DNA from: Bradyrhizobium agreste
GTDB lineage: Bacteria; Pseudomonadota; Alphaproteobacteria; Rhizobiales; Xanthobacteraceae
Assembly: GCF_016031625.1 (NCBI RefSeq)
Contig: NZ_JACCHP010000028.1
Span: 1 to 64,000, forward strand
Direction: 5' to 3'
Length of the DNA: 64,000 bases
Shown here: piece after piece, positions 32,463 through 52,600 of the stretch
How positions within the stretch are numbered: the first letter of the stretch is position 1
Layout of the letters: each line of letters begins with the position of its first letter
Notes under the pieces: model-generated
What the model saw: the letters and a program-made list of their open reading frames with translations, nothing else
Told to the model about the DNA's origin: nothing
Databases searched by the model: none
Translations under genes and position numbers: made by a program

Positions 32463-33686
32463 ATGATGTCGATGTACTATCAGGCTTTTCAGAACCACAT
32501 GGACCTGACGGCGCCATGGCGCGCGGGGGCTTCGTCCGCGCTCAAATTCCTCAACCTGGTTCCTCAGGGCCTCTCGGACCACGTGGTCGGCCGGCTGTCG
32601 GCCGCGCTGGAGCTGATCTCGCGCTCCACACTTACCTACGACCGTCCCGCCTACGGCATCGACAGCGTCATGGTGGGCAACCGCGAGGTCGCGGTCAGCG
32701 AGGAGATCGCCTACGCCACGCCGTTCGGCTCGCTGCTGCACTTCAAGAAAGACGGCGTGGCCGAGCAGCCGCGCATGCTGCTGGTGGCGCCGATGTCCGG
32801 ACACTTCGCGACGCTCCTGCGCGGCACCGTGAAGACGCTGCTGCAGGACCACGACGTCTACATCACCGACTGGCACAATCCGCGCGACATCCCGCGCAGC
32901 GAGGGCCGCTTCGGGCTCGACGACTACACCGAGCACCTGATCGACTTCCTCGGACAACTCGGGCCGCGCCCGCACATGGTGGCGATCTGCCAGCCGTCCG
33001 TCTCCGCGCTCGCGGCCGCCGCGATCATGTGCGAGGACAACCATCCCTCGCGCCCGGCGACGCTGACGCTGATGGCAGGTCCCATCGACACGCGGATCCA
33101 GCCGACCAGGGTCAACGAGTTCGCCAAGAGCAAGCCGATCGAATGGTTCGAGCGCAATCTGATCAACTACGTGCCGGTGCAGTGCCGCGGCGCCTTGCGC
33201 AAGGTCTATCCCGGTTTCGTGCAGCTCACGGCCTTCGTCTCGATGAATCTCGAGCGCCACATCAAGCAGCATCTCGATCTCGCCAGCCACATCGCCAAGG
33301 GCGAGAAAGAGAAGGCCGCGACCATCAAGACCTTCTACGACGAATATTTCGCCGTGATGGATCTGCCGGCCGAGTTCTACATCGAGACCGTGCGCGACGT
33401 GTTCCAGGAGCATCTCCTGCCGCAAGGCAAGCTGATGCATCGCGGCCGTCCCGTGAACACCAGGGCCGTCAGCCGCATGGGGCTGATGACGGTCGAGGGC
33501 GAGAAGGACGACATCTGCTCGATCGGCCAGACGCTGGCCGCCCAGGACCTCTGCACCGGCGTGCGCGCCTATCGCCGCGTCCACCACATGCAGGCCGGCG
33601 TCGGCCATTACGGCGTGTTCTCCGGCAAGCGCTGGAACAACGAGATCTATCCGTTGCTGCGCGATTTCGTGCACGTCAATTCGTGA
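32463..33686 (+). CDS. phaZ: Intracellular polyhydroxyalkanoate depolymerase
   Basis: 407 residues. Starts MMSMYYQAFQNHMDLTAPWR, the hallmark of PhaZ1-type intracellular depolymerases; the nucleophile Cys sits in CQPSVSA, and TDWHNPRDIP and GVGHYGVFSG are further family blocks. It degrades stored PHB. The final ~34 codons are present again, truncated, at 43189-43281 and 43494-43595. Convergent gene order here is broken by inserted DNA. Confidence 0.95.
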   Translation: MMSMYYQAFQNHMDLTAPWRAGASSALKFLNLVPQGLSDHVVGRLSAALELISRSTLTYDRPAYGIDSVMVGNREVAVSEEIAYATPFGSLLHFKKDGVAEQPRMLLVAPMSGHFATLLRGTVKTLLQDHDVYITDWHNPRDIPRSEGRFGLDDYTEHLIDFLGQLGPRPHMVAICQPSVSALAAAAIMCEDNHPSRPATLTLMAGPIDTRIQPTRVNEFAKSKPIEWFERNLINYVPVQCRGALRKVYPGFVQLTAFVSMNLERHIKQHLDLASHIAKGEKEKAATIKTFYDEYFAVMDLPAEFYIETVRDVFQEHLLPQGKLMHRGRPVNTRAVSRMGLMTVEGEKDDICSIGQTLAAQDLCTGVRAYRRVHHMQAGVGHYGVFSGKRWNNEIYPLLRDFVHVNS

Positions 33687-33750
33687 GACGGCCCGAAGGC
33701 GACGATGAAATCGCGATCGCCGGACGCCTGTTCATGAGCTCTGCCTCCGG

Positions 33751-34680
33751 TCAGACCGTTGCGCGTACCGCCGGCGAGGCCAGTTCGGCCCCGCGCTCGC
33801 GGATGAATTGCTCGAAAGTCTTCGGCTTGGCGCCACCGATCGTCTCGATCGTGTCGCTTGCGCTGAAGCGCGCTGCCTCCACCGTAGCACTCGCAGCACG
33901 CAGCGACTTCCAGAGCGAGGAGAGATGTTCGACCGCGTGCGCGTTCCAGCCCCGCGCGAGCGCTTCGTCTCGCCACTGCTCGTCGGTGATCTCCTCGTAG
34001 TGCGTGTCTCTCTTGAGGACGCGCGCAAACGTCTCGACAACATCGCGGACGGAGATCACGCTTCCGATCACGGGATAGGCGGCTCCGGCCTCCAGCGCAG
34101 GCGCCGTCAGCAGGCCGACGGCGATCCGCGAGACGTCCTCGGCCGCGATCAGTGGGAGAAGCGTATTCTCGTCGCCGAGCGGCAGCCGGATGGCTCCCTT
34201 CGCAGGCAGGTTCGCCCCCACGAGACGCGCGACGTTTTCATAGAAGACGGTGGCGCGGATATGGACCGGTCCGACGCCGGCCCATTCGAACACCTGCTCG
34301 GACAGGTAGTTCTGCCGCATGCGCGGCGTGGGCGCATCGAGCGAGGATTGATACATGACGAGGTTGACGAGGCGGGACACGCCATGCCTGCGCGCTGCGA
34401 GCGCCATCGCCGCCGTCGCATCCGCCAGCCCATCCTGAACCGGATAGGCGAAATAGATCGATGACACACCCTGTGCGGCCGCGTCCACCGATCTCGCATC
34501 GAGGAAGTCGCCGACGACGATGTCGGCACCGAGCGACTTCAAGCGATCGGACCGCTCGTCGCGCTGGCGTACGAACGCGCGGACACCGACGCCGCGTTCG
34601 AGCAGCATTTCCGCAACATGCCTGCCTGTCCTCCCCTGCGTGCCGCCGGCCGCAGAGGTCACGAGAACTGTCTTCGACAT
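33751..34680 (-). CDS. NmrA-like NAD(P)-binding protein
   Basis: 309 residues. Rossmann start LVTSAAGGTQGRTGRHVAEML, then VGDFLDARSVDAAAQG and SSIYFAYPVQDG, as in NmrA/quinone-reductase-like SDRs. It lacks the classic YxxxK, so it may sense NAD(P) or reduce quinones. Divergent from the TetR gene at 34782, with two matching operators in the 101-bp gap, so it is probably the repressor's target. Confidence 0.88.
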   Translation of the reverse strand: MSKTVLVTSAAGGTQGRTGRHVAEMLLERGVGVRAFVRQRDERSDRLKSLGADIVVGDFLDARSVDAAAQGVSSIYFAYPVQDGLADATAAMALAARRHGVSRLVNLVMYQSSLDAPTPRMRQNYLSEQVFEWAGVGPVHIRATVFYENVARLVGANLPAKGAIRLPLGDENTLLPLIAAEDVSRIAVGLLTAPALEAGAAYPVIGSVISVRDVVETFARVLKRDTHYEEITDEQWRDEALARGWNAHAVEHLSSLWKSLRAASATVEAARFSASDTIETIGGAKPKTFEQFIRERGAELASPAVRATV

Positions 34681-34712
34681 CACAATGGTCCTTTACCGTT
34701 GCCACGCCCCTT

Positions 34713-34728
34713 GGTACTGATCGGTACC
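34713..34728. promoter_or_regulatory. Operator 1, GGTAC-N6-GTACC palindrome
   Basis: GGTACTGATCGGTACC, with 5-bp arms. Centre-to-centre distance to operator 2 is 31 bp, about three helix turns. It lies 33 bp before the NmrA-like ATG. Confidence 0.65.
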
Positions 34729-34743
34729 CACCGATCGCAATAT

Positions 34744-34759
34744 GGTACTGGCTGGTACC
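34744..34759. promoter_or_regulatory. Operator 2, GGTAC-N6-GTACC palindrome
   Basis: GGTACTGGCTGGTACC, same arms and spacing as operator 1. It lies 22 bp before the TetR ATG, so binding would block both divergent genes. Confidence 0.65.
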
Positions 34760-34781
34760 AAGTCAAGCGGAAAGTTTGTCG

Positions 34782-35411
34782 ATGAGCGCGAAGAGCAAGC
34801 CGCCGGTTAAGGAGGCGGAGGGCCCCGAGATCCGAAAACGAATCCTTGGTGCGGCCCTGTCGGCCTTCATGGAGGGGGGTTATGCGCAGACCAGCACGCT
34901 CGAGATCGCGACGCGTGCCCGCGTTTCGAAGCGGGATCTCTACACCCTGTTCGGCAACAAGGAAGCGATGCTCGTCGCATGCATCTCGGAGCGCGCCCAA
35001 CGGCTCCAGGCGCCGATCGATCTGCCCGCACTGCGCGACAGGAAAACGCTCGCCGGCGTGCTCACCGCGTTTGGAACGAAGCTCCTGACGGAAACGACCG
35101 ACCCGGTGGTCGTTGCCGTGTTCCGGCTGGCGATATCCGAAACCGTCAATGCGCCGAAAGTCGCGCAAACCCTGGAGACGATGGCACGCAAGCCGATCCG
35201 CGAAGCATTGCGGACCATCATGGCGAACGCGGTGTCGGCAGGGCTGCTGACCGGAGAGCCGGAGGCGATGACTGATACTTTCCTGGGCGTGCTATGGGGA
35301 GACCTGATGACGGGGCTTCTGCTCCAGACCATCGATCGACCGAGTACCGCCGACATCGCACGGCGGGCAGGCGAGGCGTCGACGGTCCTGATCGAACGTC
35401 ATGCGGCTTGA
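34782..35411 (+). CDS. TetR/AcrR family repressor
   Basis: 209 residues. N-terminal TetR HTH (IRKRILGAALSAFMEGGY, then TSTLEIATRARVSKRDLYTLFGNKEAM). C-terminal TetR_C-like helices with a conserved LRTIMANAVSAGLL. It likely represses itself and the NmrA-like gene through the paired GGTAC operators. Inducer unknown. Confidence 0.92.
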   Translation: MSAKSKPPVKEAEGPEIRKRILGAALSAFMEGGYAQTSTLEIATRARVSKRDLYTLFGNKEAMLVACISERAQRLQAPIDLPALRDRKTLAGVLTAFGTKLLTETTDPVVVAVFRLAISETVNAPKVAQTLETMARKPIREALRTIMANAVSAGLLTGEPEAMTDTFLGVLWGDLMTGLLLQTIDRPSTADIARRAGEASTVLIERHAA

Positions 35412-35468
35412 GGTACTGTCGAGACAGGACACCCGATAAACTTGTGAGGCAGCCCGACTTCTGAAATT

Positions 35469-36164
35469 ATGCGCCTCATGCACGATAGATCACCACCACG
35501 ACGGCAAAAGACTTCGCAAGTCCCTGCAAGCGAGGCCGCCATCACCCGCAAAGCTCCGGCAAGATCGAAGGGCCAGGCGCGCACGACCCGTGCAGGCGAC
35601 GATGCCCTTATCGTCGAGCTCGGCAGCCGCGTCAAGCGCCTGAGGACACAGGCCGGCCTCACCCTTGAAGAGTTTGCGGCCCAGTCGGGCGTCAGCCGTG
35701 CCATGCTGTCCAAGGTCGAGCGCGGCGAGAAGAGCCCGACACTGGCGATCATCGTGAGGATCGCCAAGGGGCTCAACGTCTCGATGTCCGCTCTGATGGG
35801 CGCAGAGCCGGATGCAGCCCAGGTCGCGGTGATCCGGAAGGCGAATCGCCTCGCCTTCAAGGATCCTGAGACCGGCTTCGAACGTCACAACCTGTCGCCC
35901 TCGCACCTCGACAACGATCTCGAGTTTCTGCTGCACCGGATTCCACCGGGCGAATCCTCGGGCGAGCTACCGCCCTACAAGGTCCCGACCGAGAAATACC
36001 TCGTGGTGCACGAGGGCGAGTTGACGGTGCAGACCGGTGACGCCAACTACGTCCTCGGCACCGGCGACTCCTTCTACTTCGACGTGCGCGAGCCCTACCG
36101 CTTCATCAATGCCGGCAGGATTCCGTGCGCCTACTACCTCGTGATCCGCCGCCGCCGGGTCTGA
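35469..36164 (+). CDS. XRE family regulator with C-terminal cupin
   Basis: 231 residues. A basic, disordered ~45-residue lead, a Cro/CI HTH (~50-105: LGSRVKRLRTQAGLTLEEFA, QSGVSRAMLSKVERGEKSPT), and a cupin (~150-225: PTEKYLVVHEGELTVQTGD, then GDSFYFDVREPYRF). This PuuR/SutR-like layout senses small ligands. It converges on the aldehyde dehydrogenase gene, and is the best candidate regulator of the catabolic locus at 36-43 kb. Confidence 0.9.
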   Translation: MRLMHDRSPPRRQKTSQVPASEAAITRKAPARSKGQARTTRAGDDALIVELGSRVKRLRTQAGLTLEEFAAQSGVSRAMLSKVERGEKSPTLAIIVRIAKGLNVSMSALMGAEPDAAQVAVIRKANRLAFKDPETGFERHNLSPSHLDNDLEFLLHRIPPGESSGELPPYKVPTEKYLVVHEGELTVQTGDANYVLGTGDSFYFDVREPYRFINAGRIPCAYYLVIRRRRV

Positions 36165-36176
36165 GCCGTTTCCCGC

Positions 36177-37715
36177 CTATTGCAATGTGAACGGGTTGGT
36201 GATCGCGGGCCTCGGATTGATGAAGACGCTCTTGGCTTCCATGTACTCGTAGATCGCTTCGAGCCCGTTCTCCCGGCCGAGGCCGGACTCCTTGAAGCCT
36301 CCGAAGGGCGACAGGTAGCTCACCACGCGGTAGGCGTTGACCCAGACCGTTCCCGCCCGCAGCCGCTTCGGCAGCGACAGCGAACGGGCGAGGTCGGTGG
36401 TCCACAGGCCTGCAGCGAGGCCAAACGGCGTGTCGTTGGCGAGCGCGACCGCCTCGTCGTCGGAGTCGAACTTGATCACGCTGAGCACCGGCCCGAACAC
36501 CTCCTCGCGCGCGATGCGCATGTCGTTGGTGACGTCGGCGAAGATGGTCGGCTCCACGAACCAGCCCTCGCCGCATTCGGGGCGAGTCGCCCGCCGCCCG
36601 CCGAGGATGCAGCGGGCGCCCTCCTCCTTGGCAAGCTCGATATAGTCCAGCACCTTTTGCAATTGCTGTTCGGTCGCGACCGGCCCAACGTCGGTGTCCG
36701 GGCTGTTGGGATCGCCGAGGCGCGCTGCCTTCATCACCTCGACGAGGCGCGCGAGAAAGGCGTCGTGGATCGAGGAATGCAGCAGCAGCCGCGATCCCGC
36801 CATACAGGTCTGGCCGCTCGCGGCGAAGATGCCCGAGATGACACCCTTGACCGCGTCTTCGATGCCGGCATCGCCGAAGACGATGTTCGGTGACTTGCCG
36901 CCGAGCTCGAGCGAGACCCGCTTGAACTGCCGTGCCGCGGCTTCATAGATGTTGCGGCCGGCAAGGTTGCCCCCGGTGAAGGCAATGCGATCGACGCAAG
37001 GATGCTCGACCAGAGGCTCGCCCGTCTCGGCGCCGAGTCCGGTCACGACGTTGACCACGCCCTTGGGAAAACCCGCCTGCTCGAACAGCTCCACCAAGGC
37101 AAGCAGCGAGGTCGAGGCGTATTCGGACGGCTTGATCACGACGGTATTGCCGGCAGCCAGCGCCGGCGCGAGCTTCCAGACCGTGAGCAGCAAGGGTGAA
37201 TTCCAGGGCGTGATCGCGCCGACGACGCCGACCGGCTCATAGGACACGTAGTGCAGCATGCCCTTCTTGTCGGTCGGCGGCATTCGACCCTCGATCTTGT
37301 CGGCGAGCCCGCCATAATACTGGAACCAGCGCGGCAGATATTTCATCTGCCCGAGCATCTCAACCCTGAGCTTGCCGTTGTCGCGCACCTCCAGTTCGGC
37401 CAGCCGCTCCGCATTTGCCGCGATCAAGTCGCCAAGCCGATGCAACAACAGGCCGCGATCGCTCGGATGCATGCTGGCCCACGGGCCGCTCACGAAGGCA
37501 CGATTGGCTGCCTGCACGGCGCGATCGACGTCTTGCGCATTGCCGCGCGGGATCACGGCCCAGGCCTTTCCCGTGTACGGGTTCTTGGTCTCCAGCCACC
37601 GTCCCGAAGCCGACTCGCACCATTCACCGTCGATATACAGCTTGAATGCCTCGAGCCGCGGCGAGCCATCTGCTCGCACCTGCCCAGACGACACCGACGA
37701 ACCTTCCGCATTCAT
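36177..37715 (-). CDS. NAD(P)-dependent aldehyde dehydrogenase
   Basis: 512 residues. Catalytic Cys in GQTCMAGSR, general-base Glu in LELGGKSPN, Asn in PWNSPL, and cofactor loop VIKPSEYAS. FTGGNLAGR replaces the usual FTGGTEVGR. It oxidises an aldehyde to an acid. It is the last gene of the minus-strand run esterase, binding protein, dehydrogenase (29-bp and 44-bp gaps), so it probably acts on a product of that system. Confidence 0.93.
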   Translation of the reverse strand: MNAEGSSVSSGQVRADGSPRLEAFKLYIDGEWCESASGRWLETKNPYTGKAWAVIPRGNAQDVDRAVQAANRAFVSGPWASMHPSDRGLLLHRLGDLIAANAERLAELEVRDNGKLRVEMLGQMKYLPRWFQYYGGLADKIEGRMPPTDKKGMLHYVSYEPVGVVGAITPWNSPLLLTVWKLAPALAAGNTVVIKPSEYASTSLLALVELFEQAGFPKGVVNVVTGLGAETGEPLVEHPCVDRIAFTGGNLAGRNIYEAAARQFKRVSLELGGKSPNIVFGDAGIEDAVKGVISGIFAASGQTCMAGSRLLLHSSIHDAFLARLVEVMKAARLGDPNSPDTDVGPVATEQQLQKVLDYIELAKEEGARCILGGRRATRPECGEGWFVEPTIFADVTNDMRIAREEVFGPVLSVIKFDSDDEAVALANDTPFGLAAGLWTTDLARSLSLPKRLRAGTVWVNAYRVVSYLSPFGGFKESGLGRENGLEAIYEYMEAKSVFINPRPAITNPFTLQ

Positions 37716-37743
37716 GGGGCACCTCGACTTCCAGACACTGGTC

Positions 37744-38949
37744 CTACCTCACGGCGAGGTAAGGACATCCACTCTTCTCTGCCGGCACGAACAGACCATC
37801 ACCCGGCAGCGTTGCCACGAGCTTGTAGAGGTCCGCCGGACTCTTGGAGTCCTGCGGTCCCTTCACCTCGAAGATGTGCATGTCGGACACGACGCGCCCA
37901 TTGGCCTGAATGTGCGCATGCTGAATTAGATTGCCCTCGATCGGCTGCTGCAGCATCTTGGCCTGGACTTGCGCGGGCTCGTCCGTGCCGATCGCCGCGA
38001 CCGCCTTCAGGTAGTGAGTGGCGGCAAGGTAAGCGAGCACATGGCCCATGGTGGGAACGGCATTGCCGCTGCGGGCCATGAAGCGCTTCGACCAGGCGCG
38101 GGTCTCCTCGTTCATGTCCCAGTAGAAGGATGCGGCGAGCCGCAGGCCCTGCGCGGTCGAAAGGCCGAGCGCCGTCACGTTGTTCTCGAACACCAGCATG
38201 GTCGCAAGCTTGGCGCTGACGCCGAACTCCTTTGCCTGCTTGATGGCCAGCACGAGGTCGGGACCGGCATTGGCAAGCCCGATGACGTCGGCGCCGGACC
38301 CTTGCGCAGCGAGAAGCTGCGATGCCAGATCGGTGACGTTGAGGGGATGCAACACCTGACCCACGACCTGGCCGCCGGAGGCCTTCACGGTCTCGCCCGC
38401 ATCGGCAGCGAGATTCTTGCCGAACACGTAGTCGGCGACGATGAAGAACCATTTCTTACCGCCGCTATCGACAATGCCCTTGGCGATGGTCTTGGACAGC
38501 TCGCTGGTCGACGGCGCCCATTGCGTGCCATACGGCGAGCAGCCGTCGCCACTGAAATTCGAGGCGTAACCGCCGCTGACCAGCGTGGTCTTCTTCAGCG
38601 TGCGGGCGATCGCCTGCACCGCCAGCCCTACCGAACTCGCCCCACCGGGAATGATGGCGCTGACGCCCTGCTGCTCGATGAACTGACGGGCCAACGCGGC
38701 GCCAATATCCGGCTTGCTCTGATGGTCGGCCGAGACCACTTCGATCTGGCGGCCCAGCACTTTGCCGCCAAAATCTTCGACCGCCATCCTGGTCGCCAGC
38801 ACGGTACCCGGCCCGCCGTTGCCGGAATAGACGCCCGACATGTCGTCGATCACGCCGATTCGGAACGGTGCGTCCTGCGCGCGCGCGGCGGCGGGAACAA
38901 CGCCGAGCAGCACCGCGACAGAGGCCGCGCGAAGCAGTGAAACGATCAT
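37744..38949 (-). CDS. ABC transporter substrate-binding protein, LivJ-like
   Basis: 401 residues. Signal peptide to ARAQD (~23); Peripla_BP_6 fold with FRIGVIDDMSGVYSGNGGPG and VVSADHQSKPDIGAALARQF. Members bind amino acids, aromatic acids or short carboxylates. No permease or ATPase gene is nearby, so it must use a distant transporter. GGGAGGAGACC precedes the ATG. Confidence 0.93.
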   Translation of the reverse strand: MIVSLLRAASVAVLLGVVPAAARAQDAPFRIGVIDDMSGVYSGNGGPGTVLATRMAVEDFGGKVLGRQIEVVSADHQSKPDIGAALARQFIEQQGVSAIIPGGASSVGLAVQAIARTLKKTTLVSGGYASNFSGDGCSPYGTQWAPSTSELSKTIAKGIVDSGGKKWFFIVADYVFGKNLAADAGETVKASGGQVVGQVLHPLNVTDLASQLLAAQGSGADVIGLANAGPDLVLAIKQAKEFGVSAKLATMLVFENNVTALGLSTAQGLRLAASFYWDMNEETRAWSKRFMARSGNAVPTMGHVLAYLAATHYLKAVAAIGTDEPAQVQAKMLQQPIEGNLIQHAHIQANGRVVSDMHIFEVKGPQDSKSPADLYKLVATLPGDGLFVPAEKSGCPYLAVR

Positions 38950-38992
38950 GGTCTCCTCCCTTGTGAATGGCGGATAGTTCATTTTCCACGGA

Positions 38993-40921
38993 TCAGAACG
39001 CGACTTTCACCGCGCCCTGCAGGGCGAATTGCGGATTGCTGTTTCCGAAGGTGCCCGCTGCGGTCAGCAAGCCGCTGACATTGCCTGTCAATACGGTCGA
39101 AACGCCGCCCACCAGCTTGCCATAGGTTCGGTCCGGATTGCCCGGCACAATCGTGTAGATCGGCAGCGCCAGCGCGGCCGTCTCGGCGGCGAGCAGCGTG
39201 CGCGCGCCGCCCAGGAAGTCGTGCTCGGCCGTCAGATTGACGAAGGAGTTGAAGGCGCGGGCGCCAACCAGAAAGGGGACGCGGAGCTGCACGCCCGCAC
39301 TTCCGGTCAGGCCCTCGAGCTTCTGCCGCGCCACGAACTGGGTGATGATGGGATCGCCGGTCTCGGTATAAGGATCGACGTTGGTGTAGTCATAGAGCAG
39401 GCCGACCAGCGGGCCGACGCGCACGCGGCCAATGTCGAACAGATAGGCCGATCTGAAGCCGGCCGTGACGGTGTCGCCTCTCGTGCTGCCGCGGATCGTA
39501 TCGACGACGCCAGGCCGATCGATGCGATAGTTGTTGTAGCCGTAGGTCGCGACGAGATCGGTCAGAAGATGCGAATAGGTCAAGGACGCATAGCCGCCGA
39601 CCTGATAGCTGTCGAGATCGAGGTGACCGGTGCCGCCATGCAGATTGGCGACCGGATTGGTGTAGTTGAGCGCGCCGCCGATGCGGATGTTGGGACCGAG
39701 CTTGACGTCGGCACCGAGTGTGCCACCCGCCAGCGTGTAGTCGAAACCGATGGCGTTTCCGTCGGCGCCGAAGCGGTCGCCGCGGCTGCCGCTGCCATAG
39801 GCGGCGGCGAGATAGACCGACAGAGGCAGCTCGGGCGCAAGACGTCGCGGCGCCTTCGTGGTCATGCCAGGCCGGTCCATGGATGCGAAGGCCTCAGACG
39901 GTCCACCCGTGACACGCGGATCGTCGGCACGAAAAGCGTCGAGCCGCGAGAAGATCGAGCTGGAGAAGTTCTGTGCGGTCAGCTGCGCGATATCGGCCTG
40001 CGCCGCGAGCCCATCCTGCGCCGCGAGCAGGTTGGCCTCGTAGCGCGCGATCACGGCATAACCGGCTTCGGTCGGGTGCAGGTCGAACATGAAATGCTGG
40101 TTCTGCACGTCCTTGGACGCGGTGAGGCAATTGCCGTCGAAAACGCAGGCCGTACCGGTGGTAAAGCCGAGGCTCTTCGGGTCGGTATAGGCCTTGGTGT
40201 AAATTGCAGCGAGATCAACGACGTGAATGCGTACGCCTGGCCGCGCCAGCGGCGCAAGCGTGGCCGCGAGGTTGTCGTTGACCAAGCCGAAGAAGGTCGT
40301 CGCTCCCGGAATGTTCGGGAAATTGTAGGGCGGGCCCAGCGGATAGAAGCCGCCGATCGTATAGAAGTTGTGTGTCGACGAGGAAAAGTTGTTCTCGACC
40401 ACGAAGTTGTGGCCGCCCGCTTTGATCAATTGCGAGACGTTGCTGAACTGCTGAGCCAGCGTTGCCGCTGCCAGCGTTTGCGGCGTGTAGGGGACACCGT
40501 TCGGATCGAGAATTCCGAGCAAGGGCGCAGCCGAGTTGTTGGGCATGCCGCCGACGACGATCAGGTCGCTCGGCTGAAAGCTCCGGCCAGCGGCCGTGAA
40601 CTCGACGATCTGTTGCGCGACGGTCGGCCCGCCGTTGAACGCGGGAAAGACGCCATTGCCGACACCGTTGTACGCGTAGTCGTTGGTCTTGATGAAGCTG
40701 TAGCTCGTGAGCTGCGAGAGCCATTGCAGCGTCCCGCGGCCATTGCCGCAGGCGCCATAGGGCGCCGATTGCGGGAATACGATCGGACAATTGCGCGACA
40801 CGTCGAGCAGACTGTCGCCAAACCCAAAGATCGTTCCGAGCTGCTGCGCCTGGGCGCTGGCAACAGGCATTCCTGCGGCCAGCAGCCAAGCTGCGGCCGA
40901 CACCGCTGACTTTAGTCTCAC
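38993..40921 (-). CDS. Autotransporter GDSL/SGNH esterase
   Basis: 642 residues. Signal peptide to SAQAQ (~26). The passenger is an SGNH hydrolase: block I IFGFGDSLLDVS with the nucleophile Ser, a middle GGMPNN block, and FDLHPTEAGY with the catalytic Asp and His. Residues ~370-642 form the beta-barrel ending in the aromatic VKVAF needed for insertion. So the esterase is displayed on the outer membrane. The start is a GTG with GGGGGA 7 bp upstream; no ATG fits. First gene of the minus-strand run. Confidence 0.9.
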   Translation of the reverse strand: MRLKSAVSAAAWLLAAGMPVASAQAQQLGTIFGFGDSLLDVSRNCPIVFPQSAPYGACGNGRGTLQWLSQLTSYSFIKTNDYAYNGVGNGVFPAFNGGPTVAQQIVEFTAAGRSFQPSDLIVVGGMPNNSAAPLLGILDPNGVPYTPQTLAAATLAQQFSNVSQLIKAGGHNFVVENNFSSSTHNFYTIGGFYPLGPPYNFPNIPGATTFFGLVNDNLAATLAPLARPGVRIHVVDLAAIYTKAYTDPKSLGFTTGTACVFDGNCLTASKDVQNQHFMFDLHPTEAGYAVIARYEANLLAAQDGLAAQADIAQLTAQNFSSSIFSRLDAFRADDPRVTGGPSEAFASMDRPGMTTKAPRRLAPELPLSVYLAAAYGSGSRGDRFGADGNAIGFDYTLAGGTLGADVKLGPNIRIGGALNYTNPVANLHGGTGHLDLDSYQVGGYASLTYSHLLTDLVATYGYNNYRIDRPGVVDTIRGSTRGDTVTAGFRSAYLFDIGRVRVGPLVGLLYDYTNVDPYTETGDPIITQFVARQKLEGLTGSAGVQLRVPFLVGARAFNSFVNLTAEHDFLGGARTLLAAETAALALPIYTIVPGNPDRTYGKLVGGVSTVLTGNVSGLLTAAGTFGNSNPQFALQGAVKVAF

Positions 40922-40994
40922 GGCTGCGTCCCCCGATGTCGTGTTCGTCCCTTGGATGGCGTCTTGCGTGCGCCTCGTTGTGAGGAAGCCTAGC

Positions 40995-41026
40995 AGAAAT
41001 TTTCTATTATGAAAGAGAAATCTTCT
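40995..41026. promoter_or_regulatory. Twin operator-like palindromes AGAA-N3-TTCT
   Basis: AGAAATTTTCTAT (40995-41007) and AGAAATCTTCTAT (41016-41028) share the palindromic core AGAA-AT[TC]-TTCT. Centres are 21 bp apart, two helix turns. They lie between the divergent esterase (GTG 40921) and CoA-transferase (ATG 41066) genes. Confidence 0.6.
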
Positions 41027-41065
41027 ATAGGAGATTTTGCGGCACCAGCGGAGGAGAGGTTCGAG

Positions 41066-43281: not shown

Positions 43282-43328
43282 CCGACATCCCCTAGATCGC
43301 AGGCCGTCCCGCTAGGCACGCGGCGTCG

Positions 43329-43491: not shown

Positions 43492-43493
43492 AT

Positions 43494-43595: not shown

Positions 43596-43626
43596 GGGTC
43601 ACGCCGCGGCGCACGAGAGCTGCTCT

Positions 43627-45531
43627 TCAAGCCCGTATCGCGCTGGACCACGCGATGACTTGCCCTGACATCACAAGGCGGTTGCGTCCGCTCTCCTTGG
43701 CGGCGTAGAGCGCCTTATCCGCAGCCGCTATCAACGACGTGCAATCTGCCTTGTCGCCGAACGACGTATGTGTCGCGCCACCAATACTGAGGGTGACCTG
43801 CTTGGATGGCGAGTTGAGCGCGTGCAGGATGCCGAGGTCCTGAATCGCTTGCCGGATTCGCTCGCCGACCTGCTCGCACCCTCCCGCGTCGGTATTTGGT
43901 AGCAGCAAGGCGAATTCCTCACCACCATACCGAGCGGCCAAGTCTGCCGGCCGCCTGGCCTGCTCCGCCAGGACCCCAGCGACCGAGCGGAGACATGCAT
44001 CGCCCGCCTGATGCCCGTACTGATCATTGAAGCTCTTGAAATGATCGACGTCCATCAGCAACAGTGACAGAGGCCTTCCTTCGCGCCTGGCCCGGTCCCA
44101 TTCCGCCTCTAGCCGCTCGTCGAAGTGTCTGCGGTTCGCCAACGCCGTCAGGCCATCCGAAATGGCGAGAGCCCCCAGCTTTTTCTCGAGATCCTTGTGC
44201 TCGGTCACGTCGCGCGAGATCGCCACCACGCCGTTGATGTCGCCACTCTGCGGACTCCTGGTGATGCGCAGCGCGGCTTCGATCCAGATTTCTCCTTTCT
44301 CTCGATGACGAGTGCGATACGCGATTCTCGCCTCCTCGGCTTCGCCGTTCTTCAACGCGGCGATCGTGTGCTCAACCCGTGCTAGATCCGCGGGATTTAT
44401 GCCGGCGAGGGCTGACGTATCCACCAATTGGTTCGGAGCCCAGCCAAGAATACGAGCGCTGGACGGTGACGCATAGAGGATCTGTCCATCAACCCCTATG
44501 CGCATGACCATGTCTCCCGACGCCTCCGCGAGGAGGCGAAAGTCGGCCTCCTTGGCAACCAGAGCAGCGGCCATCTTTTGCCGTTGGTGCAACTGATGCA
44601 CCAGCAAGAGCCCCGCGACGGCGAGCCCACATGTCAGCCCCAGTACCGCTGCGACGCGTGTTAGCGCGGCGCCGCGCCAGGGGGCCAAGACGTCATCTTC
44701 CGATTCTGTGGCAACCACGAGAACAGGGTAGCGACTGCTGAGTTGATAAAAGCTCAGACGCCGGACGCCGTCGAGAGGCGACGTGAAGTAGTAGGCGTCG
44801 GCAGCCGGCCGCTCGCGGATTTTCTTGAAGAGCGGAGCACTCGATAGATCGCGGCCCGTATATCCGTGGTCCGGGCTACGTGCCAGGACAACGCCGTCAG
44901 TGGCCGCCAGCGCAATTGAGCCGTTCTGGCCAACGTCGAATCCGCGATAAAACTGCAGAAAATAGTCGACATCGATCGTTGTAAGGGCAACTCCGGCAAA
45001 ACGGCCGTCAGGATGATTGAAGCGCCTCGACGCGGTGATGATCCATTGTCCGCCCGACTTGCTCTTCACCGGATGTCCAATGAAGGTTCCCCGTTCGGGC
45101 ACGGCACGATGATGCTGGAAATAGTCTCGGTCGCTGTTGTTGAGACCGGCGAAATCCAAGGGCTCGCTGGTTGCAAGCCAGCGGCCGGTCTCGTCATAGA
45201 CGAACACGGCACGGATCCGGTTCGCGGCTTTGCGTCGGGTCAGCAAGGTCTGAATCTTGCCGATTGCCGCTGGGCTGATTCCTTCGAGCTCGAGTTGACC
45301 GACCAACATGTTTAGAACGGTGTCCGCGAGCTCGAACGTGTCGTCCGCGTGCTGCGTCACCGATCGAGCCAGATTCGCCATGTCCGTTTCGGCGTTCCTC
45401 AGCACCGCCAGTCGCGAGGACCACTCGCGCCAGCCGCTGAGCGCGACAATCGCCATGCAGGCGACCGCCACAAATACCGAGGCCCAGAACGTCAAACGCG
45501 CTTGGCGGGGATCGCTGCCGTGATCGGTCAA
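43627..45531 (-). CDS. Diguanylate cyclase with Cache and PAS sensor domains
   Basis: 634 residues. Two membrane helices (~15-33 and ~285-305) frame a periplasmic Cache domain (IDVDYFLQFYRGFDVGQNGS), followed by PAS (~325-440) and GGDEF (~455-620). The active site RYGGEEFALLL is intact and RxxD five residues before it forms the product-inhibition I-site. It makes c-di-GMP in response to a periplasmic ligand. It lies beside a PilZ glycan synthase, a likely consumer of that signal. Start: TTG with GGAGGGAACATCTC. Confidence 0.93.
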   Translation of the reverse strand: MTDHGSDPRQARLTFWASVFVAVACMAIVALSGWREWSSRLAVLRNAETDMANLARSVTQHADDTFELADTVLNMLVGQLELEGISPAAIGKIQTLLTRRKAANRIRAVFVYDETGRWLATSEPLDFAGLNNSDRDYFQHHRAVPERGTFIGHPVKSKSGGQWIITASRRFNHPDGRFAGVALTTIDVDYFLQFYRGFDVGQNGSIALAATDGVVLARSPDHGYTGRDLSSAPLFKKIRERPAADAYYFTSPLDGVRRLSFYQLSSRYPVLVVATESEDDVLAPWRGAALTRVAAVLGLTCGLAVAGLLLVHQLHQRQKMAAALVAKEADFRLLAEASGDMVMRIGVDGQILYASPSSARILGWAPNQLVDTSALAGINPADLARVEHTIAALKNGEAEEARIAYRTRHREKGEIWIEAALRITRSPQSGDINGVVAISRDVTEHKDLEKKLGALAISDGLTALANRRHFDERLEAEWDRARREGRPLSLLLMDVDHFKSFNDQYGHQAGDACLRSVAGVLAEQARRPADLAARYGGEEFALLLPNTDAGGCEQVGERIRQAIQDLGILHALNSPSKQVTLSIGGATHTSFGDKADCTSLIAAADKALYAAKESGRNRLVMSGQVIAWSSAIRA

Positions 45532-45715
45532 GAGATGTTCCCTCCACCCCTGGAACCCCAGAGCCTTGGGTAAGACAGGCTTGCTTATTTCGATCCAGGT
45601 TTGTGGCAGAACCTAGAAGGAGACTGACGACATTCACAGTGGGCTTGCGCGCAATCGACCAGCTGCGGACCGGTCGACGGACCCAACAGCAATCAGCTCA
45701 GCTTGATGGCCTAAG

Positions 45716-45762
45716 GCATGATCCGGAAAAGTGAGCAGCTGTTTTCCGAAAAGATCATGCTC
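45716..45762. repeat. GAGCATGATC-type palindromic repeat, copy 2
   Basis: GCATGATCCGGAAAA and TTTTCCGAAAAGATCATGC are the arms; same element as 12038-12086 in inverse orientation. The gap 45532-45816 holds nothing else supported. Confidence 0.85.
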
Positions 45763-45816
45763 AAACAGAGCGCTAAAGCGCGCTGGCGATTCGACCTGAA
45801 GCCATCGCGCATTAGC

Positions 45817-47991
45817 TTAGAGCACCGTGCCGGCTACCGGGCCAAAGCCAGATTCAGTGAAACTTGCCGGATGCCCGCTTCGAACTCCCGCAAGATGTGC
45901 CAAATCGTCGATCCGCGGTTGAGGTCGAATGAGCAGGCTCTCTGCCGGCAGACGCTCAGCCGGCAAAAGCGATGCGGGCTTGGCGCCGTTTGTAACAATT
46001 TGAGGCAACGGCGCGGCCATTGACCAGATGTTCTTGAGCATCGTCCTGTTCACCGAGCACGCGACGGCACCGTTCCCCTTCAGGCGGGCGACGGTAAAGA
46101 GCTTGCGGATCAGCAGGTCTCGTTCAAGCGATTGCGGCAATTTGAACTGCACCCCGACGAGCTGGCCTCTTTGTTGCACAATCATCGCGTCGATCCAGCC
46201 CACCTGCATGATGTGCATGCGCAGCGGTTCTCCGGGAGGAGGACCGTCAATGCTGGAACCGAGCAGGACGCCGGCGCCGGAAAGGGAGATGTTGCTCACG
46301 CGCCCGGAAAACCGCTCGCCGGTCTCAGTCTCGATCAAGACTGATTCGTCGACATCGAAACGCTCCTCGGAACGCCCCATCCGCGCCTGCAGCGAGGTCA
46401 TGCAGACGAAGAAAAGCACGACGATGTTCACGACCGACCAGAAGGCGACCATCGGCAATGCGGCCGGATGATCGATGATGCGCCATTCCGGGATGGTGTT
46501 CAGAACCAGACCGATAACAGTCAGCGCTATGAGAGCCGCCGACGGCCAGAATATGTCCGCGGCGTAGCTTGAGCACCGTGCTGCAGCACCCTTGGGCGTC
46601 ACCCTGAACGCATGTCCCTTCGGCTTGACGAGAGTCCCGAGCACCGTCGGCAGGAGCTTGAAGCTTTGGATAGTCGCCGATACTTGAGCGGCGAGCGGAA
46701 AATGTTCGTGCGGCGCGAACCAGGAGATGCCGCCGTTGAGCACCAGGATCGCGGGGAACAAGTAGTAGAAGACCGACTCAGGGGTGACGTCGACGACAGG
46801 CGCTAGCCCAGTCCACATGAACACGATCGGAACCACCACGACCGCGAGCGCGCGCAGGCCCATTGAGAGCCAATGCGTAGGGAAGAAGAGGAGCCGTTGC
46901 ATCAAACCCAGTCCGGGGCCGAGCGGGCCGGCGGCGAGATACAGCGTCTGGATCGCGCCACGCGCCCAGCGTTGCCGCTGCACGAAAAAGGCGTCAAGGC
47001 TTTCTGGCGCCAAGCCGATCGCCAGCGGCTCGCGAAGATATCGGGTTATGTATCCTTTGCGTAGCAGGACCAGCGTCAGCAGAATGTCTTCCGTAATGGA
47101 CTGGGTCGGCAGGGCATCTCCGATTGCGTGGAGTGCTCCACGCCGTGTGACGGAGTTGGAACCACAACAGAAGGCTCCATCCCAGCCGTCGCGCGCGGGC
47201 ATGATGGAATCGAAGAAGAACCGTTGTTCGTCCGGCAGTCCCCTATGCAGGCCGAGATTCGCCTGCATCGGGTCCTCATTGTAGAAGGTGTGCGGGATCT
47301 GAACGATCCCTATCTTTGGATCGGCGAAGAAGCCCATTGTGCGCATCAGGAAATTGCGCTGCGGCACGAAATCCGCATCAAAGATCGCGAAGAACTCGCC
47401 ACTAGTCTTCGTCAGGGCATGATTGATATTGCCGGCCTTGGCATTTACGTTGTCGGCGCGCGTGAGATACCCGGCGCCCTTTTGCTCGCAGAGTTCCTTG
47501 AGCCAAGGCCTGCGACCATCATCCAGGACCCAGACCTGGAAGTTTGGATAGTCCAGGCACAGCGCGCCGGTGATCGTCTTTTCCAGCACCTCGAATGGCT
47601 CGTCATAGGTCGGAATAAGGACGTCGACCGAGGGCAGCACGTCATCCGGCAGGCTGCGAAGCCGACGTTCGTGCTGATCAGCTTCACTGCGGCGATCAGT
47701 CCTGCGAAGAAAAGTCAGATAGAGAATGAACTGATCCGTGAAGGTCAGAAGCTCGACGAGGAGACAGAACCAGATCCAGCCGACCTGATACCAGGTCCCG
47801 CTTGCCGGCAGCACGGTGGAGAAAATACGCCATTCGAGATAGCGGGCAACCACGAGCCAAACCGCGACAAAAACCGCGACACGTGCCCAAAGGCGCGCGA
47901 CTGGAAAGGTCGGCGCCAACAGGTACATCGCGGCAAAGCTGATCAGCATCGGCGCGAACAGCTGAGAGAAAGGCAGAGTCATGGCCTGCAT
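45817..47991 (-). CDS. Family 2 glycan synthase with PilZ domain (BcsA-like)
   Basis: 724 residues. Membrane helices at the N terminus, GT2 catalytic domain with VLDDGRRPW, DADFVP, the TED motif and QRQRWARGA (QxxRW), then more membrane helices, then PilZ (~535-640: RSEERFDV with RxxxR, and NISLSGAG), the c-di-GMP site. An 80-residue tail follows PilZ. It polymerises and exports a beta-glucan in the inner membrane. GGGAGATGTTCC precedes the start. 12 bp from the HlyD-like gene. Confidence 0.93.
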   Translation of the reverse strand: MQAMTLPFSQLFAPMLISFAAMYLLAPTFPVARLWARVAVFVAVWLVVARYLEWRIFSTVLPASGTWYQVGWIWFCLLVELLTFTDQFILYLTFLRRTDRRSEADQHERRLRSLPDDVLPSVDVLIPTYDEPFEVLEKTITGALCLDYPNFQVWVLDDGRRPWLKELCEQKGAGYLTRADNVNAKAGNINHALTKTSGEFFAIFDADFVPQRNFLMRTMGFFADPKIGIVQIPHTFYNEDPMQANLGLHRGLPDEQRFFFDSIMPARDGWDGAFCCGSNSVTRRGALHAIGDALPTQSITEDILLTLVLLRKGYITRYLREPLAIGLAPESLDAFFVQRQRWARGAIQTLYLAAGPLGPGLGLMQRLLFFPTHWLSMGLRALAVVVVPIVFMWTGLAPVVDVTPESVFYYLFPAILVLNGGISWFAPHEHFPLAAQVSATIQSFKLLPTVLGTLVKPKGHAFRVTPKGAAARCSSYAADIFWPSAALIALTVIGLVLNTIPEWRIIDHPAALPMVAFWSVVNIVVLFFVCMTSLQARMGRSEERFDVDESVLIETETGERFSGRVSNISLSGAGVLLGSSIDGPPPGEPLRMHIMQVGWIDAMIVQQRGQLVGVQFKLPQSLERDLLIRKLFTVARLKGNGAVACSVNRTMLKNIWSMAAPLPQIVTNGAKPASLLPAERLPAESLLIRPQPRIDDLAHLAGVRSGHPASFTESGFGPVAGTVL

Positions 47992-48003
47992 GGAACATCT
48001 CCC

Positions 48004-49284
48004 TCACAGGGGCGACTGGTCGAGCTCCAGGCGAGCGGTCAACCACTTCAACTTCGAGCTGACCAATCGCAGCAGGCCGTCGGCTCTGCGCTCGAAGCGC
48101 ACTTCAGCCAACCGTCCGATATCGCAGGAGCCGTTGCTGTCGGCCGGCGTCACATTCGGCGGAAGCGATATCTCAACGGTAATGTTGCCCGGATCAGGCC
48201 GCGGCACCCGAGCCGCAAGCAGCCGATCATCGCCGTACGCGGCCGATCCGCGGACCTGCCGGATCTGGCCGCTCTTCCATTCGCGACTCCCAATCAGGCG
48301 GACGGTAGCCGCATCTCCGGCCTTGATCTTCTCGAAATCGCGCTCGGGCAGTTCAACAACGATGAATCGGCGTTCGCAATCTGCAAAATCGAAGACCGAT
48401 TGCCCCTCCGTCACCATCGAGCCCGGGCTGGCCGCGACCGACCAGACCACATGGGCGGCGGGCAAGGACAGATCGTAGTGATCGAGACGATCAAGCCGAG
48501 CGCGCTCCTCTGCGATTTCCGCGGCCAGCTGCGCGGAACGTGAGCTGTTTTGCAATTGGTCTGTCTCGAGCTCCTGGCGGCGGAGAACAAGTCGCTCGCG
48601 TTGCTGCTGGGAATAGGGCACGTCATTGGCATCGCCGCGAAGATAGATGCCCTTCTCGGCCGCCCCCAACTCGGTCCTGAGGCGCCGCAGGCGTTCGTCG
48701 GCCATCTGGCAGCGCGCTGCGGTTGCCTCCTGCGAGGCTTGGGCCTCACCGGAGCGGATCTGCGAACTGACGCCGAGCTTCACGAGCCTCTCCATCCGGC
48801 CCGCGACATCGTTCCGCTGCCGCGCCTCGGCGAGACAGCCGCCTTTTTCAGCTTCCGTTTCTCCGATCTCGTGGCTCAGGCGCGCTACCATCCCCAAACG
48901 ATGGTCCTCGCTGCGCTCGCGGAGCTTGCGATCGAGCTCGGCGATTTCCTCCAGTTGCCGGCGTGCCAGCTCGGCGCGCTTGGTGGACACGGCAAGCTGC
49001 TGATCGAGGTCCATGAGGTGCCGGCGATCCGGCGAACGCGCCTCGATCAGCGGCACCACCCGGGTGCGCTGGAAATATTCGCCCTTGCGTGGAAGATCAG
49101 GCGAGAGCTGACCCGCGATCGGTGCAGTCACCCGCATGAGCTCGGCATTGACAAATGCGGAAGGAGCGATTCGGTAGGTCACATACGGTAACAGCGCCCA
49201 TCCGCCCAGAGCGATGATTCCGAGCGCCAGGGATCGGCGAACAATCCGGCTGCGGATGATACGTTCGACATGCAAGCGAACCAC
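48004..49284 (-). CDS. HlyD-family membrane-fusion partner of the glycan synthase
   Basis: About 426 residues. One membrane helix (SLALGIIALGGWALLPYV), a biotinyl-like half (VNAELMRVTAPIAGQLSPDL), a long coiled coil (~90-270, rich in Gln/Glu/Arg), then the second half and a beta domain. Such proteins link an inner-membrane synthase to the periplasm, as BgsB does for the mixed-linkage glucan synthase BgsA. The start is uncertain: GTG at 49284 has GGAGATCCAGTC, but the frame opens to a TTG at 49395. The 320-bp gap to the cyclase gene carries nothing else. Confidence 0.82.
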   Translation of the reverse strand: MVRLHVERIIRSRIVRRSLALGIIALGGWALLPYVTYRIAPSAFVNAELMRVTAPIAGQLSPDLPRKGEYFQRTRVVPLIEARSPDRRHLMDLDQQLAVSTKRAELARRQLEEIAELDRKLRERSEDHRLGMVARLSHEIGETEAEKGGCLAEARQRNDVAGRMERLVKLGVSSQIRSGEAQASQEATAARCQMADERLRRLRTELGAAEKGIYLRGDANDVPYSQQQRERLVLRRQELETDQLQNSSRSAQLAAEIAEERARLDRLDHYDLSLPAAHVVWSVAASPGSMVTEGQSVFDFADCERRFIVVELPERDFEKIKAGDAATVRLIGSREWKSGQIRQVRGSAAYGDDRLLAARVPRPDPGNITVEISLPPNVTPADSNGSCDIGRLAEVRFERRADGLLRLVSSKLKWLTARLELDQSPL

Positions 49285-49604
49285 GACTGGATCTCCAAAT
49301 GGGCTTTGGTCGCTCCGCCTGCCCCTTCGAAGGCAAGCCAATCGCCGCATGGCCCGGGCGTTGGCTTGAAGCCTGCGCCTTGAGGCAATGAGCAATCCGA
49401 CAACATTGCTGCTGATCGAAAATCAGGATTCGCCGCCGCAGCAGATTCGTCTCTCGCAACCACGAGAAGCATATCCAGCTTTCACCACAACAGGTTAAGA
49501 CGTGTCAAAACCGGAGAACTACGGCTCCGGAATCGAGAACAAGATGCCGACCTATTCTGGCTTGAAGTCGGCGCGGCGCTCGTACCGATCGAATGGCGGC
49601 GCGG

Positions 49605-52600
49605 CTAACGCCCATTCCTGAGCAGCTCTTTCGCTTCCGCGAATTCGTGAAGACCATGCTCCGCCTCGAATTGAGCGACCACGGGAGCGAGCACTTCGGA
49701 TGCCGCACCCGCGCGACCACGCCTCTTGTGCAGGCGCGCAAGTCCAAGGGCGCTGCGCAGCTCGAAAGTCTTCGTCTGCTGGCCTCGTGCAATTTCCAGC
49801 GCTCGCGTGAGAGCGTTCTCGGCACCGGAATCGTCCGCGGGGTCTTGCCGCAACAAAAGCTCGCCGTGGACGCGGTGCAGCTCGGCGTCAAGCCAACGCT
49901 GACCGGTCTGTCGCGCCCATGCAATCAGCTCACTCAAGATTTCGAGCCCGGTTTCGACCTGGCCCACCTCGGCGTCCGCCATGGCGACATGCATTCCCCA
50001 AAACGGTTCGCAGAGGTAGCAATCGTTCTCGTGCAGCAAGGTCCAGCCGTGACGCATGTCTGCCAAACCAGCCATTCGGTCTCCAGCACGCCACTTGGCG
50101 AGGCCGTTGAGGTAGGTGCCGGCGGCGACGTACAGCGGCATCGTATGGTCGCGTGCGAGACCGAGCGCCAGGATCGTCTCTGTCTGCTGCAACATGCCCC
50201 CGCATACCCCATCGAACACGGCGCGATGAACCAGTGCATTGGCCTGGGACAGCGCCCGTTTCTCGCCCGGAGTACCCACCGCGTCCGCGGCGAGCTCGCG
50301 CGCACGAGCGGTGCTACCGAGCGGCCAGAGCACCAGGGCGAGAAATCGCATGATCACGAACGGGAGATCCAGCGCCGAAGCCCTGAAGGTCGCGGGCTCT
50401 GGTTCGGCCCGATAGATCGCCAGCGCCCGCTCAAGATGCGTACGCGCGTTCAAATACTCGCCGGCGAACCAGCAGGTCACGCCGCCGGTCCAATGGGCCA
50501 CGACGGCGGCCACCGGCGAATCTGGCCGCCGCTCAGCGGCGCTCCTGATGGCATCCGCCAGCTCCCGCATCGGAGCAAGTTCGCCATGCGTCAGGCAGGC
50601 ATTGAAGAGCCCGGAATGGACCGGCGCAAGTTCAACGGGATCATCGATACCGGCCGCGAATTGTCGCGCGCGCGTCCATGCCGCGACGGTTTCCGGAGCG
50701 CTGTGGCCGAGGCTGCCCCGCAAGGCACGGCCATATGCGATCTGAAGATGCAGCCTGCTCATCATCCGGCGGGACTCGTCAGGCAATTGATCGGCGATCG
50801 CAATGGCCTTGCCGAGATGCGCGATCGCCTCGGAATAGGCCGAGCGTTTCAACGCCTGCTGGCCCGCCTTGCGCCACCATTCGAGGGCGACTTCGCTCAG
50901 CCCCGCCTCGGTGAAGTGGTGCGCCAGGACTTCCGGCTCGGTCTCGGCGACGACTGGAAACTTCTCGCGCAGGACATCGCCAATTCGTGTGTGAAGCACC
51001 TGCCGTCTGCTCTTGAGCAGACTCTCGTAGGCCGCTTCCTGAACAAGGGCGTGCTTGAAACTATAATTTGCCTCGGGCGGCGTTCCATGACGCAACAGCA
51101 GTTCGGCCTCTTCAAGCTGAAGAAGCGCAGCGCTCAGCGTCAAATCATCACGTCCCGCCACGGTTTTCAGCAGCGCGTATGAGAAGTCACGGCCAATGGC
51201 GGCGCCTATCTGGGCCACCTCCTTGACCGGAGCGAGCCGGTCAAGCCGCGCCATCAGCGAATCCTGCAGCGTCGCCGGAATGGCAAGCGGCGGCAACGGG
51301 CTATTCAGGCGGTAGCGCCCGGCATCTTCGACAAGTAGACCGGACTCCAGCACCATCTTGGTCAACTCCTCGACGAATAGCGGGATGCCATCGGTCTTGT
51401 CGATGATCTGCTTCATCATCTCGCGGGGCAGCTGGCGGCCGACGACGACCTGCTCGACCAGCGCGCGCGTGTCCTGCCGATCGAGCCGGTCGAGCCGCAA
51501 CAGACTGACGTTGGCAAGGCCCAACCAGGAGGGCTCGAACTCCGGCCGGGACGTCAAGAGCACGAGTATCGGCAGTCCTCTGATCCGATCAACCGCGAGA
51601 TCGAACAGCTCAAGTGTCGTGGCATCGGCCCAATGCATATCCTCGCAGATGATCAGCAGCGGCTGGTCTCGCGCCAGTCCCTCAAGCTGATCGAGAAGGG
51701 CGGCAAATGTCTGTCGCCGCTGCTGCGCCGGGCTCAAGCCGAGGGGCGGGCAATGGTTGCCGGTGGGAATCGAAAGCAGAGCCGCAATGAGCGGTGTCGC
51801 CCGGGCGACCTGCTGGGTTCCTATTGCGAGCATTGCCTCGAGCTTGTCGAGCTTTTGATCCGGCGTGTCGTGCGAGCGAATTCCGGCGGCGCGCTCGAGC
51901 TGCGCGACAAAGGGATGAAGCGCACTGTTGGTGTGGTAAGGCGAACACTGATACCGCACGCGACGGTGCGTCCCCAATGAGGGGCTTTCGGACAGCGTTG
52001 CCACAATACGCGACTTGCCAATGCCCGCTTCGCCGGAAATCAATACGATCTGGCCCCGGCCCTGCCATGCCTCCCGCTGGCGCGAGAGGATGAACTCGAT
52101 CTCGTTCTTGCGGCCGACAAAACCGATCGAGCGCGCGGCACGGACTGCCTCGAAGCGACTCTCGGATGCGGCCGCTCCTTCCACCGCCCAGACTGCGATG
52201 AGGTCTGCCATTCCCTTGACCTCACGGCGGCCGAGATTGCGAAAGGTGAAGAGATCGCCAAGCAGCCGGCGCGTCGATGACGCAACGACGACGACCCCCG
52301 GCTCCGCCAGGCTCTGGAGCCGGGCGGCGAGGTTTGGCGTGTCGCCGATGGTTGCGTGCTCCTCCGACGCATCTCCGCTGACGAGGTCGCCGACCACCAC
52401 AAGTCCGGTCGCAATTGCGATCCGCAGTTCAGCTCGTTCGTCAGTCCCTGTTTTGAGCTGGCCTATCGCGGAGATCATGTCGAGGCCGGCGCGCACCGCA
52501 CGCTCGGCATCGTCTTCGTGAGCGCGCGGATAGCCGAAATAGACGAGTATTCCGTCACCGACGAATCTGGCTATCCTGCCATCATAAGCAGCAACCACGC

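Follow-up and report, generated by a model that had tools for sequence, protein, structure and literature searches.

An additive insertion hotspot behind phaZ in Bradyrhizobium, probably built by repeated crossover and end joining

Introduction

Duplication of a gene end around cargo is the classic mark of integrase-bearing islands. Integrase-less hotspots, homology-facilitated illegitimate recombination (HFIR) and sequential displacement of gene ends are also already known, and gene gain at integrase-less hotspots has mostly been inferred from flanking-gene statistics. Here we describe a spot behind phaZ, the gene for polyhydroxybutyrate (PHB) depolymerase, in Bradyrhizobium agreste. Single alleles, a tandem product, breakpoints and erosion are visible there in one genus, and one join is readable to the nucleotide. 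The window, as we call the whole stretch analyzed, comprises the first 64,000 nucleotides of contig NZ_JACCHP010000028.1 (our C21) and belongs to a draft genome of 75 contigs and 7.88 Mb with a stated contamination of 1.02%.

The closest described systems share parts of this picture. For Vibrio cholerae type VI effector–immunity modules, the excerpted text (PMC5361080) describes additions at a conserved upstream anchor, with old 3′ ends and genes shifted downstream, intermediates in other strains and HFIR as the proposed route. HFIR and the circularize-and-single-crossover route resemble what we propose for phaZ in using one homologous and one illegitimate end, or ligation followed by crossover; as excerpted, the sources present them from laboratory assays and genome inference (PMC3240628, PMC2884548). 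Integrase-less hotspots between core genes likewise combine high turnover with conserved flanks and no recognizable mobility genes (PMC5635113, in excerpt). Finally, transformation merodiploids of Streptococcus pneumoniae keep two versions of a region after DNA uptake, according to excerpts of PMC3784515.

Among the matches listed for open-access literature on Bradyrhizobium illegitimate recombination and on phaZ and hotspots, no paper is titled on the phaZ locus. Open-access literature on stacked islands with truncated flanking genes turned up only Mesorhizobium integrative elements. We propose that the spot behind phaZ is an additive insertion hotspot at which crossover in phaZ and end joining have acted repeatedly, followed by erosion, and we put the probability of this reading at roughly 0.75.

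Results

An earlier note on the window, made from the letters alone, had claimed three phaZ 3′ ends, two 3′ ends of a cyclase gene, and convergence of the intact copies of both genes. Self-BLAST of the window recovered all five ends, at positions that differ by no more than 10 bp, and the convergence was borne out (Table 1). The phaZ end at 33585–33687 is repeated at 43494–43596 (103 bp, 96.1% identity) and that at 33592–33686 at 43187–43281 (95 bp, 90.5%), while the two displaced tails, 43187–43281 and 43501–43595, are 89.5% identical to each other. The cyclase end at 49596–49770 is repeated at 43320–43494 (175 bp, 85.1%). All four pairs are direct and gap-free, with E values of 1e-29 to 1e-51. 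The phaZ tails at 43187 and 43494, like those at other loci, are the partial duplicates of a homologous anchor that mark additive insertion. This architecture is read directly from the sequence.

The segment 43187–43494 is a truncated junction of phaZ tail, spacer and cyclase tail. It is 90.6% identical to the phaZ locus L130 and 89.7% identical to L003 (L-numbers denote the phaZ loci compared), and in both of these the phaZ tail adjoins the cyclase. From 43494 on, the window follows the phaZ–B–cyclase allele of L091, starting at phaZ position −101, and the two halves abut with 1 bp in common. A 181-base probe across this join has matches in 249 of 265 genomes; among the matches listed, this genome alone covers the whole probe and the others stop at the join. 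For the copied cyclase tail the best match is L130 (94.4%), against 86.9% identity to the window's own cyclase tail, which is itself closest to the B-type locus L097 (90.6%). Because the copied tail is closer to L130 than to the window's own, the two differ in ancestry, which points to two alleles and not to a local duplication.

We collected 221 phaZ loci and left out those with identical phaZ before counting, which gave 175 distinct phaZ genes. The sample is non-random, 80 loci being the best of 434 phaZ matches and the rest drawn in order from the matches listed. Downstream sequence covers at least 3 kb in 172 of the 175 loci and at least 9.9 kb in 164. The best-matching named phaZ among the best 80 of 434 matches is that of B. 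yuanmingense CCBAU 10071, with 99% protein identity. Tiles of 500 bp downstream of phaZ were common to 0.28–0.33 of the other loci (64 loci compared); upstream, the nearest 7.5 kb were common to 0.61–1.00 and tiles beyond that to 0.42–0.47. The spot shows the conserved flanks, with high turnover between them, of a horizontal-transfer hotspot.

Both alleles of the window occur singly in relatives. A convergent cyclase lies downstream of phaZ in 55 of the 175 loci and directly adjoins it (<260 bp) in 41. All three genes of block B are present in 11 loci, window included, and block B stands behind phaZ without block A in relatives such as L002, L091 and L107. Numbering the block A genes A1–A8 in order from phaZ, A1 and A2 occur in four loci and A3, A4, A7 and A8 together in four, window included. 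This latter set lies behind phaZ in L111 and L126 (L126 without A6) and beyond the cyclase in L137. Only the window, among the 175 loci, has A3 and A4 together with block B. Separately, the far side of the cyclase carries A3–A6 in L035 and A3–A8 in L137, so the A genes also move to a neighboring spot.

These counts bear on the earlier note, which read the window as two allelic versions of one phaZ–cyclase insertion spot in tandem. The states it predicted for relatives are there (phaZ next to the cyclase, B without A, A genes without B), the double-block layout is neither fixed nor ancestral in relatives, and the single alleles together with the separate ancestry of the copied cyclase tail support the tandem reading. 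Two of its details changed. phaZ stands as the left anchor, but the cyclase is itself cargo and not the right border; the common right flank is an oligopeptide-type ABC-transporter ATPase gene, here called D. D is in the fetched stretch of 86 of the 175 loci, less than 300 bp from phaZ in 19 of them and at most 13.6 kb away. Blocks A and B are distinct, but A is not a single unit. It is a composite of A1–A2 and A3–A8. L130 starts with phaZ and a stretch of about 1.1 kb that includes a hydrolase gene; A1 and A2 follow, then a phaZ tail beginning at nt 1114, then the cyclase. In the window A3–A8 lie between A2 and the displaced tail, and comparison with L130 thus indicates that block A took two or more steps to form.

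Stacking recurs elsewhere. L049/L199, L147/L055 and L154 each have a displaced phaZ tail right next to a copy of downstream sequence. Between copied piece and tail the overlap is 1 bp in the window, 4 bp in L049/L199, 2 bp in L154 and 11 bp in L147; in these four stacked loci the other end was joined with little or no homology. From its alignments, L199 is the clearest case, with both apparent parent alleles existing singly. Its positions −200 to 2318 form one alignment with L074 (phaZ–X–D, X being the cargo of such alleles; 89.2%), and 2315–7800 form one with L183 (phaZ–cyclase–D; 87.7%), the two parts overlapping by 4 bp. L147 is composed of pieces resembling L053, L199 and L141. Displaced tails without a detected right-flank copy are found in L092, L097, L017 (where only 4.4 kb downstream is covered) and L130. 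L183, L199 and L111 each have a very eroded tail 46–48 bp ahead of D, as does L147 ahead of its copied D, which suggests that the cyclase module itself arrived by the same route. A 44-bp remnant precedes X in L148, in the same register as in the phaZ–X allele of L074.

For a test of strand bias, the last 70 nt of nine phaZ alleles were searched downstream of phaZ in the 175 loci. A same-strand copy lies there in 12 loci and an opposite-strand copy in 0. Eight of the 12 have copies of at least 67 bp; L111, L148, L170 and L202 have copies of 25–44 bp. Reversed tails, used as a control, matched in 0 of 175 loci, and other 70-nt phaZ pieces, taken toward the 5′ end, in 6, 1, 1, 1 and 0. Counted outside the 12 are the eroded tails of L044, L183, L201 and L215, detected only when the same strand was searched with a relaxed E cut-off of 0.05, and L045, which has internal phaZ pieces only. 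Among 101 repeats of 60–600 bp in 127 loci, the 10 that involve phaZ are all direct. The remaining 91 (72 direct, 19 inverted) include many diverged paralogous stretches of 65–72% identity.

Judged by their codon changes, the window's two displaced tails are no longer under coding constraint: 8 changes are nonsynonymous and 2 synonymous, compared with 365 and 1676 when intact genes are set against the window phaZ. Between the L092 tail and the intact end, 15 codons differ synonymously and none nonsynonymously; this retained constraint fits a recent displacement.

Several smaller observations concern the other loci. Eroded phaZ tails also lie behind the cyclase module in L148 (4698–4750), L044, L215 and L170, and the remnant before X in L148 is more like the phaZ end of L074 than that of L148 itself. 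Cargo behind phaZ in L092, L154, L097 and L017 includes AbiJ/Abi_C, TIR-nSTAND and metallophosphatase-pYEATS genes and a HicA-like protein that falls below the cut-off; by their domains these are possibly phage-defense genes.

Block A encodes a TetR regulator, an XRE-cupin regulator, an aldehyde dehydrogenase, a periplasmic binding protein, an autotransporter, a class III CoA-transferase and an HMG-CoA-lyase-like protein. In 1-kb windows its GC content is 0.615–0.657, and that of block B is 0.579–0.647. The A8 stop codon, TGA in L111 and L137, is TAG in the window, where its last two bases are the first two of phaZ copy 2. A dispersed repeat of about 100 bp lies at 45716–45815 and 11985–12084 (85% between them), has at least 40 matches in the genome and is also found in L097, between the displaced phaZ tail and block B. 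A pair of about 91 bp at 24004–24094 and 24684–24774 matches both inverted (92%) and direct (85%), so each member is nearly palindromic. About 10.5 kb of the L130 backbone, flank D included, is missing at 54115–54149, with homology resuming at 54149.

Table 1. Features of the phaZ hotspot in the window
Feature	Position	Strand	Basis or remark
Intact phaZ (PHB depolymerase), left anchor of the hotspot	32463–33686	+	PF06850, E 1.2e-100
phaZ 3′ end copy 1, inside the intact gene	33585–33686	+	self-BLAST
Block A	33687–43186		33723–35413 (A1, A2) 96.5% to L130; 35438–43186 (A3–A8) 83% to L111, L137
Seam between A1–A2 and A3–A8	35414–35437		phaZ tail right after A2 in L130; L111/L137 homology begins at 35438
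Displaced phaZ 3′ end copy 2, from phaZ nt 1130	43187–43281	+	self-BLAST
Spacer of the truncated phaZ/cyclase junction	43282–43319		43282–43340 87% to L003, 77% to L130
Displaced cyclase 3′ end	43320–43494	−	self-BLAST; 43331–43490 94.4% to L130
Displaced phaZ 3′ end copy 3, from phaZ nt 1123	43494–43595	+	collinear with L091 from 43494 onward
Join of the two alleles	43494		join probe and alignments
Block B	43596–49604		homologous to L091, L107, L097 at 88–92%
Block B GGDEF cyclase	43627–45531	−	
Block B cellulose-synthase-like glycosyltransferase with PilZ	45817–47991	−	
Block B HlyD-like protein	48004–49395	−	
Intact cyclase gene (SAM, guanylate cyclase, AAA)	49605–52943	−	3′ end 49596–49770 is the second copy

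Discussion

The order of steps and the enzymology we infer as follows. The hotspot would work without an integrase of its own, and incoming DNA would repeatedly be added, not exchanged. A fragment with phaZ sequence and downstream cargo would undergo one homologous crossover with the resident phaZ, while its other end, sharing little sequence with the target, would be attached close to the 3′ end of the resident gene. phaZ would thereby stay intact, with the old 3′ end displaced downstream as a useless tail that later erodes. At least two such events, and probably three, would account for the window. A1–A2 may have entered a phaZ–cyclase junction, a state persisting in L130; A3–A8 would then have been added between A2 and the displaced tail; and this A allele, cut within its cyclase gene, would have been joined to phaZ nt 1123 of a phaZ–B–cyclase allele, so that both alleles were kept in tandem.

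Tails start at phaZ nt 953, 1062, 1071, 1108, 1114, 1123, 1130, 1149 and 1156. These variable starts, the joins with 1–11 bp in common and the absence of a tyrosine integrase from the contig argue for crossover in phaZ plus end joining, and they fit the earlier note's suggestion of homologous or illegitimate recombination without an integrase. The genome has seven tyrosine integrases (PF00589), with none on C21. Serine recombinases and transposases are absent from the 16 window open reading frames scanned with Pfam, no genome-wide search for them having been made. PF00589 is also absent from the phaZ contig of five relatives (genomes G080, G060, G023, G022 and G071), and in the single-contig genomes G193 and G141 the nearest lies about 210 kb and 50 kb from phaZ; no PF00589 thus stands within 50 kb of phaZ in seven relatives, as far as the contigs reach (serine recombinases were not searched). 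Five Ku genes score over the cut-off, which makes end joining plausible; Ku reportedly aids the capture of foreign DNA in Sinorhizobium. Displaced copies were once longer and have since shrunk, as L147 and L154 still keep pieces from further upstream in phaZ. L116 is the nearest locus to both the phaZ body (3.8%) and the displaced tail (6 differences) of L092 but not to its intact tail (15 differences), the pattern predicted for an intact end that arrived together with the cargo.

Several observations weigh against this proposal. The tail starts are clustered, with eight of nine in the last 163 nt of the 1224-nt gene. This is not expected of random joins unless long copies were lost; such loss of long direct repeats offers the simplest account of it, if not a full one. 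A tail is missing from most loci that carry cargo, which calls for other routes or for complete tail erosion, and there is none at the right end of block B (L091, L107) or of A3–A8 (L111) between phaZ and the cyclase. No donor emerged, and a scan of phaZ for a crossover point in the window gave nothing usable. Displaced copies are nearer to relatives than the intact end in four of eight tails (L092, L130, L147, L017) and further in the other four (both window tails, L097, L154). To L130 the window's own cyclase tail is nearly as close (90.0% over 150 of 160 nt) as it is to L097. Pooling all eight tails gives 13 nonsynonymous and 29 synonymous changes (p 0.04, the comparisons not being independent), a weak loss of constraint. 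The apparent stacking in L154 is based on a 67-bp copy, and L045 holds an inverted 34-bp phaZ piece.

How the fragment's ends met is a narrower question. One possibility is that end joining first closed the fragment into a circle, which a single Campbell-type crossover in phaZ then integrated, in place of linear HFIR; we give this sub-route somewhat less than an even chance. Ligated fragment ends would place the copied right piece directly against the displaced tail, which is how all four stacked loci are arranged, and the five Ku genes also favor circularization. In E. coli, as excerpted, circularization with a single crossover is ten times more frequent than HFIR (PMC3240628). Nothing speaks specifically against this sub-route, but HFIR gives the same product, and the loci without a copied right piece (L130, L097, L092, L017) fit either route. 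A bolder answer to the clustered starts is that some property of the last ~160 nt of phaZ, or a factor that acts on them, makes joining frequent, so that this gene end serves as a preferred capture site; we regard this as doubtful. If true, the spot would be an integrase-less cassette array in which cargo always enters beside phaZ and distance from phaZ records age. The short direct tails might then let RecA release circular cargo able to re-enter phaZ of another strain.

Crossover and end joining must also be set against readings of another kind. An island that attached at the phaZ 3′ end, rebuilt that end with every insertion and later lost its integrase would match the duplicated gene ends around cargo, but it is improbable given that tail starts spread over nt 953–1156 with no fixed core repeat and that no integrase gene of the PF00589 family, the one searched for, accompanies the insert. 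Direct repeats would also arise if a phaZ–cyclase segment had been duplicated locally in tandem, with cargo lost or gained later. This duplication is disfavored to a like degree by the ancestry of the copied cyclase tail (94.4% to L130 versus 86.9% to the window's own), by single A-type and B-type alleles in relatives and by L199, made of two alleles that occur singly. That an assembler wrongly joined contigs of two strains is very unlikely. The genome is a 75-contig draft and the whole join occurs, among the matches listed, in it alone, but the join lies outside any long repeat with 1 bp shared, the changes in the displaced tails are private and mostly nonsynonymous, joins of this kind are present in other assemblies (for one, in L049 and L199), and the stated contamination is low, at 1.02%. 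Least credible is that the tails are short functional genes or regulatory pieces under selection, as their recurrence in one orientation and the L092 tail (0 nonsynonymous, 15 synonymous) might suggest. Their start points differ between loci, several are down to ~45 bp, and 8 of 10 changed codons in the window are nonsynonymous; this loss of constraint speaks against short functional genes for the window's two tails, an outcome that the earlier note had named as refuting its reading, and the L092 tail is still constrained.

Incoming alleles can thus pile up beside resident ones, so that two modules are kept at once, and such events elsewhere can be recognized by an easily scored mark, displaced gene ends that share one orientation. 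What is new is a natural case with both single alleles and the tandem product, a constant housekeeping anchor and several rounds. In the Vibrio cholerae modules, as excerpted (PMC5361080), replacement affects the variable end of the anchor gene itself, and immunity genes are retained by selection; at phaZ the housekeeping anchor is constant, the cargo is unrelated, and stacking involves entire alleles together with part of the right flank. Compared with known HFIR, phaZ offers natural products and single alleles resembling the parents, within one genus. Core-gene hotspots, in the excerpts of PMC5635113, exchange alleles by double crossover at both flanks, whereas additions at phaZ leave tails and tandem alleles. 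The pneumococcal merodiploids are duplications of ~100–900 kb formed by unequal crossing-over at repeats, according to the excerpted PMC3784515, whereas the phaZ spot stacks alleles of kilobase size without a long repeat.

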